Below, in pieces: positions 32,461-36,509 of a stretch of 64,000 nucleotides of DNA. The notes under the pieces are model-generated. The model ran no database searches. It was not told where the DNA came from and was given only the letters and a program-made list of their open reading frames with translations. The stretch covers positions 62,001 through 126,000 of the forward strand of contig WLOP01000003.1 in NCBI GenBank assembly GCA_009699205.1. Direction: 5' to 3'. Position 1 is the first letter of the stretch; each line of letters starts with the position of its first letter. The stretch comes from Actinomycetota bacterium (GTDB lineage Bacteria; Actinomycetota; Actinomycetes; Nanopelagicales; Nanopelagicaceae). Position numbers and translations under genes: made by a program.

Positions 32461-33589
32461 ACTTCCCTCAGAATATGAGGACCTGCGAACCAGCGTACGT
32501 TCTCTATCCGAAAAAGAGATTGCTCCCTTTGCGCAAAGGGTCGACGAGGAGGCGAGTTTCCCTCAAGAAGCTTTTGATGCGCTACAGAAGGCGGGATTAG
32601 CAGCGGCTCATGTACCTGAGGAATTTGGCGGAGATGGTGCTGATGCTCTTGCAACCGTCATCATTATTGAAGAAGTGGCACGAGTATGCGGCGCATCTTC
32701 GTTGATTCCTGCTGTCAACAAACTTGGTTCGTTACCTTTAATGCTGTCAGGATCGCAAGAACAGAAAGAGCGCTGGCTACGTCCATTAGCAGCGGGCAAA
32801 GGATTTTCGTATTGTCTTTCAGAATCTGAAGCGGGATCGGATGCCGCCGCTATGAAAACTAAAGCAACAAAATCCAAGGATGGCTGGGTTATTAACGGAA
32901 GCAAGAAATGGATTTCAAACGCAGGATTCTCTGATTTCTACACTGTATTGGCGTCGACTGATCCTGCCGCTGGCGCAAAAGGAATTACTGCCTTTGTCGT
33001 TGAAAAATCTGATGTTGGCATTTCCTTTGGTGCTCACGAAAAAAAGATGGGTTTTCGTGGCTCTCCTACGCGCGAAGTATATTTCGATAATGTAGAACTC
33101 TCTGATGATCGGCGAATAAGTGGCGTAGGTGAAGGGTTCATACTCGCTTTACAAACACTTGATCACACGCGTATAACAATTGGAGCGCAAGCATTGGGCT
33201 TGGCTCAAGGTGCGTTAGATGTTGCAAGTAAATATGCCCACGAACGCAATCAATTCGGGAAACCTATATTTGATTTCCAAGGTGTTCAATTTATGCTCGC
33301 TGATATGGCAATGAGCATCGCTGCTTCGAGGCAACTAGTTTATTTGGCTGCAGTTAAGAGCGAGAACAATGCCAAAGACCTCAAGTTTTTTTCAGCGGCG
33401 AGTAAATGTCTTGCCAGTGATACTGCAATGAAAGTTACGACAGATGCAGTCCAAATTCTTGGTGGATATGGATACGTGTCCGACTATCCGGTTGAACGCA
33501 TGATGCGCGATGCAAAACTTACACAAATTTATGAAGGTACTAACCAGATTCAACGGGTAGTTATGGCGCGCAATCTTCCGAGCAACTAA
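32444..33589 (+). CDS. Acyl-CoA dehydrogenase
   Basis: A 381-residue FAD enzyme of the acyl-CoA dehydrogenase family. FAD/substrate motif YCLSESEAGSDAAAMKTKA, then KKWISNAGFSDFY, the Arg/Gln block YAHERNQFGKPI, and the C-terminal IYEGTNQIQRVVMARNL containing the catalytic Glu. ATG 32444 follows GAAAGGG; an earlier ATG (32417) lies deeper in the upstream gene. Chain length specificity is not readable; short or branched chains are typical for this size. Convergent with fthC (4-base overlap). Confidence 0.94.
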   Translation: MENLFELPSEYEDLRTSVRSLSEKEIAPFAQRVDEEASFPQEAFDALQKAGLAAAHVPEEFGGDGADALATVIIIEEVARVCGASSLIPAVNKLGSLPLMLSGSQEQKERWLRPLAAGKGFSYCLSESEAGSDAAAMKTKATKSKDGWVINGSKKWISNAGFSDFYTVLASTDPAAGAKGITAFVVEKSDVGISFGAHEKKMGFRGSPTREVYFDNVELSDDRRISGVGEGFILALQTLDHTRITIGAQALGLAQGALDVASKYAHERNQFGKPIFDFQGVQFMLADMAMSIAASRQLVYLAAVKSENNAKDLKFFSAASKCLASDTAMKVTTDAVQILGGYGYVSDYPVERMMRDAKLTQIYEGTNQIQRVVMARNLPSN

Positions 33590-34134
33590 GAGTTAAAGCG
33601 GAGGATCGAAGCCGGGCTACAGGCAGCGTCAAGTGGTAGGTCGTGTACTTCTCTTGGTAAATCTCGAGTGCACAATTCATTTTCCCAAATGAGCCCTACT
33701 TTCCATGCGTCAAATTCTTTCAACGCGCGGTCGTAATAGCCACCTCCTTGGCCCAGTCGATAACCGCTCTTATCAATGAGTAACGCAGGCACAATCATTA
33801 CTTTCACTTTCGATAGCTCAGTAAAAGCGGGTCCTACTGGTTCGTGAATTTTCCCGTTCTTCATCAACGAGCCTTCTGCCTGACTCCAACGAACCCATTC
33901 CAATAGTTGACCGCTAATTCGCGGAAGCAAAAGAATTTTCCCTTCTGCAAGCAGAGCGCTATTTAGTTGATCTGTGTGCGGTTCGTCACCGTAGGAATGA
34001 TAAGAAGCGATAATTTCGGCTGAAGAAATTTCAGGTGCAGAGAGAAGTATTGAATAATCCGCAGATGAAATATTATTCCTGCGGTCAAGACGTGCCTGAG
34101 TGCGCAGAAGCGCTTTTTCTTCAGGTATTGTCAC
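33586..34134 (-). CDS. 5-formyltetrahydrofolate cyclo-ligase
   Basis: A 182-residue ATP-dependent enzyme converting 5-formyl-THF to 5,10-methenyl-THF. The signature is LIDKSGYRLGQGGGYYDRAL (about 125-144), which forms the ATP/folate pocket; RxDRRNN at the N-terminus is also typical. In Actinobacteria it commonly lies beside galU, glp, rimJ and sepX; here galU is missing and the gene is divergent from glp. Confidence 0.95.
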   Translation of the reverse strand: MTIPEEKALLRTQARLDRRNNISSADYSILLSAPEISSAEIIASYHSYGDEPHTDQLNSALLAEGKILLLPRISGQLLEWVRWSQAEGSLMKNGKIHEPVGPAFTELSKVKVMIVPALLIDKSGYRLGQGGGYYDRALKEFDAWKVGLIWENELCTRDLPREVHDLPLDAACSPASILRFNS

Positions 34135-34177: not shown

Positions 34178-35089
34178 ATGTCAGAGCAGATAAAGGTAGA
34201 TGAGTTCCTGAGTTCCTTATTGGCCATCTGCCATCCACTCGATGCCTTTGATATGCCGTTGCTTGATGCCCATGGAGCAACTTTGGCGAAGGATATCTAT
34301 GCTGGCGAAAGACTGGTGATGGGAGCAGACACGCGAATTCGCTCCACACACATTGGGTTAGCCGCTTCGATCGGTCTCGGGCAATTGCCTACGCGCCCAC
34401 AACCTCGCGTTGTGGTGATTTCTGCAGGGCCAGATCTTGTTGAGCCCGGTAAACCTATAAGTGGAACCGAAGAATATGAAACTAACTCGTGGTTATTGAC
34501 CACTGCTGTGCGCGAAGCCGGTGCCGTTGGCTATCGCGTGCACTCAATCCCTGATAACGATGGCGAACTTAGAGCCTTGGTAGAAGATCAACTTGTGCGA
34601 GCAGATCTCATCGTCATTAGCGGCGAGCGAGGAGATGACTCCTTCGACATGATTACTCGGACACTCTCACTACTCGGAGAGATTACAACAGTGGATTTAG
34701 CAATTGAAAATAGTGGCCGTCATAATTATGGTGTTATCGGTCCGGACAAGACACCGGTTGTCACGCTTCCAGGTGATCCTATTTCTGCATACATCTCACT
34801 CGAGCTTTTTGTGCGTCCAATGATTCGTACGATGGTGGGCTCTGAAAATATCCATCGTCCCTCGGTGAAAGCCCGTTTAGAAAAACCTGTGGCATCCATA
34901 CATGGGATGCGCTCGTATCTGCGAGGTTTTCTTTCTGAAGACGGTAAAACGGTCCGTGCGCTACCTCATCAAGAGGAGATGTCCACTCTTTCCGATGCCA
35001 ACGCGCTCATTGCCGTGCCTGAAGGGGTAGAAGAACTCGCAGCAGGTGCTCAAGTAATTGCCGTTGTATTGCGTCGTAGGTATTTCTAG
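34178..35089 (+). CDS. glp: Gephyrin-like protein Glp (shortened MoeA homologue)
   Basis: A 303-residue MoeA/gephyrin-E homologue, about 100 residues shorter than usual. Domain I remnants (residues 1-75: ALAKDIYAGERL-like and THIGLAASIGL) are joined directly without domain II, and the DNSAMDGYA molybdopterin motif is gone. Domain III is diverged: VVVISAGPDLVEPG instead of a TGDEL motif, SGERGDDSFDMI instead of TGGxSxG, and LPGDPISAY. Domain IV follows. In Corynebacterium, Glp binds FtsZ and the membrane protein GlpR; the neighbouring sepX/glpR here supports that role over molybdenum cofactor synthesis. Inference: non-enzymatic divisome protein. Confidence 0.8.
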   Translation: MSEQIKVDEFLSSLLAICHPLDAFDMPLLDAHGATLAKDIYAGERLVMGADTRIRSTHIGLAASIGLGQLPTRPQPRVVVISAGPDLVEPGKPISGTEEYETNSWLLTTAVREAGAVGYRVHSIPDNDGELRALVEDQLVRADLIVISGERGDDSFDMITRTLSLLGEITTVDLAIENSGRHNYGVIGPDKTPVVTLPGDPISAYISLELFVRPMIRTMVGSENIHRPSVKARLEKPVASIHGMRSYLRGFLSEDGKTVRALPHQEEMSTLSDANALIAVPEGVEELAAGAQVIAVVLRRRYF

Positions 35090-35101
35090 AAAATAGTATC
35101 C

Positions 35102-35674
35102 ATGAGAACTCATTGGCCAGTGGTTATTGATTCGGGTGATGTAATTTTGCGCCCCTTACGCTTGCGCGATCAGCGCCAATGGAAAAAGGTACGGGCCAAG
35201 AATCGTCAATGGCTCGAACCATGGGAGGCTACATTGCCCAAAGTTCCTGGAGATGTCGCGCTAAATGAACCTCCTTCATATCTGGAAATGATTCGCTCAT
35301 ACAACAAAGAGGGGCGATCGATTCGATCGATCTCACTGGGGGTTTGGTATCAAGGGGCTTTGGTCGGCCAGATATCCATGGGCGGAATTATCATGGGGGC
35401 ACTTCGCGGAGCTCATATCGGGTATTGGATTGACCAGTCTTACGCCAATCTAGGAGTCACCACTGTTGCAGTCGAAGCCATGACTCACTTTGGATTCAAA
35501 GAACTATCGCTGCATCGCATCGAGATAAATATTCGCCCCGAAAATGCAGCCTCCATTCGGGTCGCAGAAAAGAGCGGGTATCACTTCGAAGGCGAACGGC
35601 CCCGGTTTCTCCATATTGATGGACAATGGCGCGACCATCATTGTTATGTCCGAGAAAATTCCCAAATTTCTTAA
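35102..35674 (+). CDS. GNAT-family N-acetyltransferase (RimJ/RimL type)
   Basis: A 190-residue acetyl-CoA transferase. The RimJ pattern includes VILRPLRLRDQRQWKKVR near the start, GYWIDQSYANLGVTT for the acetyl-CoA region, and LSLHRIEINIRPENAASIRVAEKSGY (shown only by its ends here) for motif A/B. RimJ/L enzymes acetylate N-termini of ribosomal proteins; target unknown. Located 12 bases after glp and upstream of sepX, the order kept throughout Actinobacteria. Confidence 0.88.
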   Translation: MRTHWPVVIDSGDVILRPLRLRDQRQWKKVRAKNRQWLEPWEATLPKVPGDVALNEPPSYLEMIRSYNKEGRSIRSISLGVWYQGALVGQISMGGIIMGALRGAHIGYWIDQSYANLGVTTVAVEAMTHFGFKELSLHRIEINIRPENAASIRVAEKSGYHFEGERPRFLHIDGQWRDHHCYVRENSQIS

Positions 35675-35744
35675 GAAATAAACCCAGCAACACTTGCGGG
35701 TTAATACCTGATTGAGCGTGATTCCGCCTCTATCTTTGGACATC

Positions 35745-36509
35745 ATGACCTCCGGAATCATCTATCTAGCAATCATCGGAATGTGGGTTGCCTATTTCGT
35801 GCCCCGCTGGGTTCATAACCATGAAGAATTTTCAGGTAAATCCGTAGAACGTTATAAGAGCGCACTGCGTGTAGTCGCGACCGGATCTGATACATCAATC
35901 AAGAGTTCGGTCAGCACAGATTCAGATCACGAAGCTAAGAACGCTCACACTCTAATAAAGCGCAGAATTATTTTTGCACTACTTTCAGCTTCACTCGTTT
36001 TCACACTCCTTGAATTCTCTCTCAGCACTTTAGCTTTTGAATATAACCTTCTGCCTCTCTCGGGACTTGCAATATATGTTGCACATGTTCGCCGACAAAG
36101 TTTGGTTGAAAGTTTGCAACGTAGGCGCATCGTTCAATTACATCGCTCCACCGCCGGAGTATCGACTACGAATCTGTCTCAAGTTGTCGCGCCAAAACAA
36201 ACTCGCGAACATTGGATTCCGCTTTCAGAGCGGGAGTTAACTGGCGTCGTTCTCTTGCCTCAAGGGTCTGCGCAAGAGAGAGATTCATGGTCGCCGGTTA
36301 ATATCCCCGTCCCGACTTATGTGAGCGCACCAAAAGCGTTCGTACCAAAGCGAGTAATTGATTTAACTATTCCAGGTGCCTGGAGTGAAGAGCAAGAAAA
36401 ACTTGAGCGCGAAGCTTTAGCGGCTGCTGCACCATCTGCAGATCAAGTTTTCGATCAACAACTTGCAGAGCAAGCAGTTGAGCGTTTTCGTGATGCATCA
36501 AATAGTTAA
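35745..36509 (+). CDS. sepX: Divisome membrane protein SepX/GlpR
   Basis: A 254-residue membrane protein. From ATG 35745 it begins MTSGIIYLAIIGMWVAYFVP, aligning with the known SepX/GlpR opening (a first helix followed by PRW/PMW and an Arg-rich turn). Longer frames from TTG 35712 or GTG 35718 would add residues before this conserved start. Two more helices lie at about residues 80-120, then a cytosolic tail with basic and Ala/Gln-rich parts. SepX stabilises septal FtsZ in Streptomyces, and GlpR is the membrane receptor of Glp in Corynebacterium. Gene order glp-rimJ-sepX supports the call. A tRNA-Ala follows. Confidence 0.82.
   Translation: MTSGIIYLAIIGMWVAYFVPRWVHNHEEFSGKSVERYKSALRVVATGSDTSIKSSVSTDSDHEAKNAHTLIKRRIIFALLSASLVFTLLEFSLSTLAFEYNLLPLSGLAIYVAHVRRQSLVESLQRRRIVQLHRSTAGVSTTNLSQVVAPKQTREHWIPLSERELTGVVLLPQGSAQERDSWSPVNIPVPTYVSAPKAFVPKRVIDLTIPGAWSEEQEKLEREALAAAAPSADQVFDQQLAEQAVERFRDASNS

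Follow-up and report, generated by a model that had tools for sequence, protein, structure and literature searches.

A Glp protein without domain II in the Nanopelagicaceae, a candidate structural partner of SepX/GlpR in cell division

The locus and the domains of the short Glp

The window (the whole stretch of 64,000 nucleotides that was analyzed) comes from a genome of the Nanopelagicaceae and carries an open reading frame, with an ATG start, for a 303-residue homolog of the molybdenum insertase MoeA, referred to here as the short Glp. Its domains and its conserved neighbors are arranged as follows (window coordinates, strand):

33586–34134 (−): 5-formyltetrahydrofolate cyclo-ligase, divergent neighbor (Pfam, NCBIfam)
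34178–35089 (+): short Glp without domain II, 303 residues (Pfam, NCBIfam, PDB relative, alignment, predicted structure)
34178–34228 (+): N-terminal helix of domain III, residues 1–17, approximate (alignment and the borders in the passages of PMC10522489 used here)
34229–34396 (+): domain I, residues 18–73, its two halves now contiguous (alignment; helices and strands in the model)
34292–34309 (+): junction DIYAGE, residues 39–44, the site at which domain II (about 100 residues) has dropped out (alignments)
34397–34846 (+): domain III, residues 74–223, MogA-like fold with altered catalytic motifs (Pfam, alignment, structure comparison)
34847–35086 (+): domain IV, residues 224–303 (Pfam, alignment)
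34910–34963 (+): domain IV hairpin region, residues 245–262, shortened, Tyr369 position deleted (alignment)
35102–35674 (+): RimJ/RimL-type GNAT acetyltransferase, conserved neighbor (Pfam, NCBIfam, synteny)
35712–36509 (+): SepX/GlpR, membrane divisome protein, probable Glp partner (NF050099 SepX_GlpR_2, synteny)
36288–36320 (+): WxPxxxPxPTY motif in the C-terminal tail of SepX, around WSPVNIPVPTYV (conservation in SepX sequences)

The short Glp exceeds the Pfam cut-offs for the domain III family MoCF_biosynth (43.3 bits) and the domain IV family MoeA_C (39.5 bits), and MoeA_N scored only 14.9 bits, covering the first 42 of 160 profile positions. The Glp model of NCBIfam (NF045515) ranked best with 259.9 bits, ahead of actinobacterial MoeA (189.4 bits) and other, lower-scoring models; the Glp score lies below the cut-off of 475 bits, as expected for a protein from which a quarter of the profile is missing, and its best stretch spans profile positions 139 to 403. 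The closest relative by sequence in the PDB is the Glp of Corynebacterium glutamicum (Cgl0883; 8bve and 8bvf), for which the match to 8bve had an E-value of 4.4e-34, at 31% over the shared part.

Alignment with full-length Glps placed the absent block between AKDIYA and GERLVM and showed that it comprises the whole of domain II, DNSAMDGY included; the exact break, at DIYAGE, is ambiguous because full-length Glps carry DI or DV on both sides. The borders given for C. glutamicum Glp in those passages of PMC10522489 assign residues 1–19 and 182–331 to domain III, 20–45 and 146–181 to domain I, 46–145 to domain II, and 332–417 to domain IV. Domain II is therefore an insertion inside domain I, and it is exactly this insertion that is gone from the short Glp. 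A detached domain II was sought elsewhere in the same genome, and none was found. Among the remaining motifs, TGDEL has become AGPDL, TGGVSxG has become SGERGDD, and the GSH of domain IV is lost. The open reading frame, Pfam, the alignment, and the structural model thus agree with a preliminary description of this DNA, which had reported a MoeA homolog of only 303 residues that lacks domain II and the DNSAMDGYA motif and has altered TGDEL and TGGxSxG motifs. That description also had a remnant of domain I running straight into domain III; domain II is indeed gone, but domain I is no remnant, since by the C. glutamicum borders quoted from PMC10522489 both of its halves are present, as is domain IV. 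Mean column identity is nearly the same in domain III (0.886) and domain I (0.883), and in the stretches that may correspond to the two proline-rich hinges of Glp, Pro74 and Pro76 are invariant in 22 of 22 aligned sequences and Pro20 is nearly so.

The short Glp has neither the four-domain architecture of Glp nor the features of MoeA, namely domain II with DNSAMDG, together with intact TGDEL and TGGxSxG motifs. With the MoeA insertase (E. coli MoeA; PF03453, PF00994, and PF03454), it shares ancestry and the fold of domains I, III, and IV; unlike MoeA, it has lost domain II, its DNSAMDG, TGDEL, TGGxSxG, and GSH motifs are absent or altered, and it exists without a molybdenum cofactor (Moco) pathway. 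In MoeA, one wall of the active site is made up by domain II.

An AlphaFold2 model of the short Glp, based on 47 sequences, reached a pLDDT of 83.7 and a pTM of 0.81. Foldseek ranked 8bve first, and VIA-align superimposed the model over approximately 290–300 residues on MoeA, gephyrin, Cnx1E, and Glp (Z about 29–32), with values of Z 31.9 and 2.5 Å over 300 residues for Cnx1E and Z 29.9 and 3.1 Å over 291 residues for 8bve. The protein is thus predicted to cover the MoeA/Glp fold minus domain II, and the model fits closed MoeA/Cnx1E better than the open Glp of 8bve, a difference that may reflect prediction bias.

A chimeric or truncated gene model was rejected, as the gene is in frame and of near-constant length across the family, and an assembly artifact was ruled out by its presence in finished chromosomes, including those of Ca. 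Planktophila versatilis (NZ_CP016774.1) and IMCC19121 (CP015605.1).

Distribution, origin, and independence from molybdenum cofactor synthesis

To establish the distribution of the short form, 206 genomes of the Nanopelagicaceae (acI), each at least 80% complete, were surveyed. The short Glp occurs in 196 of them, with five copies broken or cut by contig ends (G060, G087, G124, G186, and G229). Full-length Glps are found in five genomes (G024, G081, G082, G033, and the contig-cut G080), and these are confined to two early-branching genera, g5 and g14; no Glp was found in a further five (G017, G132, G143, G223, and G190). In a search of GTDB contigs, the alignment as query recovered 80 loci, and the short Glp sequence alone matched nothing. 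This distribution indicates that the short Glp is an old, family-wide trait of the Nanopelagicaceae and is not specific to the genome containing the window. Judged from titles and the openings of abstracts, none of the matches listed in a literature search describes a Glp without domain II, and the search returned nothing on MoeA or the molybdenum cofactor in Nanopelagicales or Nanopelagicaceae.

In the Glp tree, the short forms of the Nanopelagicaceae constitute a single clade (support 100/100) whose stem branch measures 0.82 changes per column, and in a tree that includes three MoeA paralogs of the family, the short Glp separates from these with equal support (100/100), indicating that it groups with Glp and not with the MoeA paralogs. 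An FtsZ tree computed with the tail left out places the split of g5 and g14 before all sampled short-Glp genera (98/96), the bootstrap being not fully settled. Since the short forms constitute one Glp clade and the FtsZ tree independently places g5 and g14 outside, the simplest account is one deletion of domain II, in the ancestor of the Nanopelagicaceae other than these two genera.

Among 134 genomes from other families of the class, a short form was the best match in only one, G312. This 1.5-Mb genome encodes a 307-residue short Glp (L186:1366-2289) between galU and rimJ-sepX, and a search with a full-length Glp query gave no match besides it. The protein has Ala at the Tyr369 position in the alignment and a junction four residues longer. 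In the Glp tree it sits on a long branch and falls outside the clade of the Nanopelagicaceae (99/99). A topology uniting all short forms was not rejected by an AU test (p-AU 0.171); the Glp of G312 probably lost its domain II independently of the loss in the Nanopelagicaceae.

Selection on the short forms was estimated from 39 non-overlapping pairs out of 321 at 85% identity or more, with synonymous sites near saturation (dS 0.94). The dN/dS ratio was 0.040 for the whole gene, 0.031 for domain I, 0.028 for domain III, 0.063 for domain IV, and 0.051 for the hairpin, indicating strong purifying selection.

In the genome containing the window (96% complete), a Pfam search for MoeA_N (PF03453) and MoaC (PF01967) detected neither. 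Across the 206 family genomes, MoeA_N is present in 67, MoaC in 66, both in 64, and neither in 137. MoeA_N without MoaC occurs in G080, G192, and G226; MoaC without MoeA_N occurs in two genomes, G017 (a 230-contig draft in which Glp was not found) and G147 (4% contamination, two Glps). Where a short-Glp genome has MoeA_N, the match sits in a separate gene, usually an open frame of 380–410 residues. A full Moco pathway with no MoeA besides the short Glp, which the preliminary description regarded as incompatible with a scaffold, is thus not the rule. Because 137 of the 206 genomes have neither marker, Glp persists without the Moco pathway, and its presence is independent of it; the co-occurrence with that pathway expected of a MoeA is lacking in the genome at hand and in these 137.

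The full-length Glp of g5 differs in this regard. In G024 (L064:2003-4155), its DNSAMDG, TGDEL, and TSGGVSQG motifs are intact, the gene order is galU-glp-moaC-mog (mog denoting a MogA-like gene), and the single MoeA_N match of g5 is the full-length Glp itself. This protein may still be a molybdenum insertase, possibly with a dual function. The g5/g14 arrangement, in which the only MoeA is full-length, retains the motifs, and is encoded next to moaC, likely represents the state before the two functions split.

The FtsZ/GlpR-binding hairpin, SepX, and DivIVA

Besides having the same fold in its three remaining domains, the short Glp has in common with C. glutamicum Glp the rimJ-sepX/glpR neighborhood and, apparently, a proline-rich linker. 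RimJ and SepX genes lie 3′ of glp in 72 of 72 named loci (those of the 80 with 1.6 kb of downstream sequence), with sepX within 1.5 kb, so that the genomic linkage typical of Glp is retained. The downstream protein of the window belongs with SepX of Streptomyces and GlpR of Corynebacterium by NCBIfam model and synteny, its score on NF050099 being 91 bits against a cut-off of 150. Its tail carries WxPxxxPxPTY, a motif that the L220 protein, from a different family, does not have. The pattern W.P...P.P.Y was found in 107 of 111 distinct SepX sequences (one of the four exceptions, L105, is cut short), and WxPxxxPxPxY is also present in SepX from further families; it was not found in the SepX-like proteins of L216, L220, L228, and L232.

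Unlike C. glutamicum Glp, the short Glp has, besides the loss of domain II, a shortened FtsZ/GlpR hairpin from which Tyr369 is gone. The region 34910–34963 corresponds to a hairpin which, in C. glutamicum Glp and according to the passages of PMC10522489 used here, is the binding site for both FtsZ and GlpR: Leu343, Met361, and Leu370 surround FtsZ Phe440; Val338, Leu360, Tyr369, and Phe414 surround FtsZ Leu435 and Val437; and Glp binds neither FtsZ nor GlpR once the loop Met361–Leu370 is deleted. These positions were compared across 118 distinct Glps, 104 short and 14 full-length. One explanation for the short Glp is that the C. glutamicum mechanism persists intact, with a dimer groove that holds the FtsZ C-terminal peptide, SepX beside it, and only the enzymatic part stripped away. 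The FtsZ tail is present (DEIDVPDFMK in the genome at hand), the equivalents of Val338 and Leu360 are retained in 82 and 96 of the 104 short forms, respectively, and Pro74 and Pro76 of the domain I–III linker are invariant, all of which accords with such persistence. The remainder of the pocket argues against it. Tyr369, present in 13 of 14 full-length Glps, occurs in none of the 104 short forms (a gap in 95); Leu343 is replaced by Glu in 89 and Leu370 by Ser in 84 and Thr in 8; and Met361 is replaced by Ser in 84, although Met361 and Leu343 are also variable among full-length Glps outside Corynebacteriales. In the Glp of the window, the FtsZ-binding loop (Met361 to Tyr369) has Ser at 361 and a deletion at 369. 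The nearer fit of the model to closed MoeA/Cnx1E (rmsd 2.5) than to open 8bve (rmsd 3.1) would point in the same direction, but it may be prediction bias. FtsZ binding via the known C. glutamicum contacts is thus unlikely from the alignment, and an intact mechanism is doubtful. Binding of FtsZ by the short Glp is less certain than its binding of SepX or a part in division; any such binding would use other contacts than the C. glutamicum crystal shows, given that those made by Tyr369 and Leu370 are lost.

The FtsZ C-terminus of most short-Glp genera has its own variant, seen at L081:2241-3374, of DEIDVPDFMK in place of the usual D-D/E-LDVPDFLK. Among FtsZ proteins of other families, 19 of 20 have Leu at position 435, as do both full-length-Glp genera of the Nanopelagicaceae; in 15 short-Glp genomes, four from the genus of the window, this residue is Ile in 12, Met in one, and Leu in two.

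A change of the FtsZ tail as a direct result of domain II loss was considered and rejected: g9, g12, and G312 combine a short Glp with Leu435, so that the tail change came at best later, on one branch.

The counterpart of a second published partner was also sought. In C. glutamicum, GlpR binds Wag31 (PMC10522489, in the same passages). DivIVA/Wag31 was undetected by Pfam, which a diverged DivIVA could escape, in 37 of 37 Nanopelagicaceae genomes, including the genome at hand (G000:C10), and was detected by Pfam in 22 of 23 genomes from other families, the exception being the outgroup G042. In the genome at hand, G024, and G035, a convergent ileS comes immediately after ftsZ, yggS, sepF, and yggT; in G312, a 283-residue DivIVA-like gene occupies the position at which ileS adjoins yggT in these three. 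With no DivIVA found, the GlpR–Wag31 half of the published link is without a known counterpart in the Nanopelagicaceae, and if the family has no DivIVA, a link to this elongasome scaffold would be impossible in its known form. The literature search returned nothing on DivIVA in acI/Planktophila, nor on FtsZ together with DivIVA in freshwater Actinobacteria.

Loss of DivIVA as a sufficient cause of domain II loss was likewise rejected, given that G024 and G033 (g5 and g14) have full-length Glps and are also without DivIVA, and that G312 has a short Glp along with its DivIVA-like gene.

A proposed structural role in division and competing readings

The favored reading, considered probable, is that the short Glp is a catalytically dead, single-purpose structural protein of the divisome that works with SepX/GlpR and whose domain II was deleted once. 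The lineage would have stopped using this Glp copy as a molybdenum insertase; a single step would then have removed domain II from the Glp of the ancestor shared by most Nanopelagicaceae; the remaining domains would have stayed because the division role needs them; and the protein's partner would be the membrane protein SepX/GlpR, the product of the second gene downstream. The preliminary proposal of a protein stripped to a scaffolding role gains support from evolution and synteny: the loss of domain II and of the catalytic motifs, the purifying selection, the conserved SepX/GlpR linkage, and the independence from Moco are all consistent with it. A retained role in binding FtsZ via domain IV, as in C. 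glutamicum, finds no support, the hairpin being shortened, Tyr369 absent, and DivIVA/Wag31 undetected. By analogy, the short Glp would dimerize, bind SepX, and act in division, a role transferred from C. glutamicum and Streptomyces; the alteration of the very hairpin that C. glutamicum requires for both FtsZ and GlpR binding counts against it.

The gephyrin E domain and Cnx1E, which have the same fold as the short Glp, provide an analogy for an insertase fold serving as a scaffold. Gephyrin E retains domain II and enzyme activity. Its receptor peptide binds a site on domain IV different from that of FtsZ on Glp, according to the same passages of PMC10522489.

A more specific form of the favored reading is put forward tentatively, namely, that the Nanopelagicaceae have a Glp–SepX module without the FtsZ/GlpR hairpin contacts or the DivIVA link, in which Glp reads a motif shared by the SepX PxPTYV tail and the FtsZ tail. 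It is based on two observations: the pocket that would receive the FtsZ tail has become polar, and Leu435, which fills that pocket in C. glutamicum, is Ile or Met in most short-Glp genera. By conjecture from the resemblance of the conserved PxPTYV tail motif to VPDFL of FtsZ, SepX may bind Glp through this motif.

A small-molecule or metabolic role exercised through the MogA-like domain III, with no part in division, would fit the conservation of that domain, which equals that of domain I and is among the highest in the protein, and the continued match to MoCF_biosynth. This reading is improbable, however, given that the catalytic motifs have been replaced, that the short Glp is retained in most of the 137 genomes without MoeA_N and MoaC, and that the gene is tightly linked to sepX. 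That the protein is a relic on its way out after the loss of Moco synthesis, as the missing domain, the long stem branch, and the broken or cut copies in five draft genomes might suggest, is scarcely credible and is refuted as a general account by a dN/dS of about 0.04 and by retention in 196 of 206 reduced genomes.

For the favored structural role, the natural deletion bears on the question of what in Glp is there for division and what is left over from the enzyme, and it hints at the part that a dividing cell can do without. The deletion was made in abundant freshwater bacteria, and probably a second time in a small genome outside the family, and both the partner and the gene order were retained; a minimal Glp of 303 residues is therefore available for direct tests. 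With no detectable DivIVA/Wag31 in the family, a Glp–SepX role that bypasses the polar elongasome becomes testable as well.

A further Glp, from G040, a 1.4-Mb genome of another family (L074:1314-2537), is full-length with both DNSAMDG and TGGVSxG degraded, and from these motifs it is a possible intermediate state.
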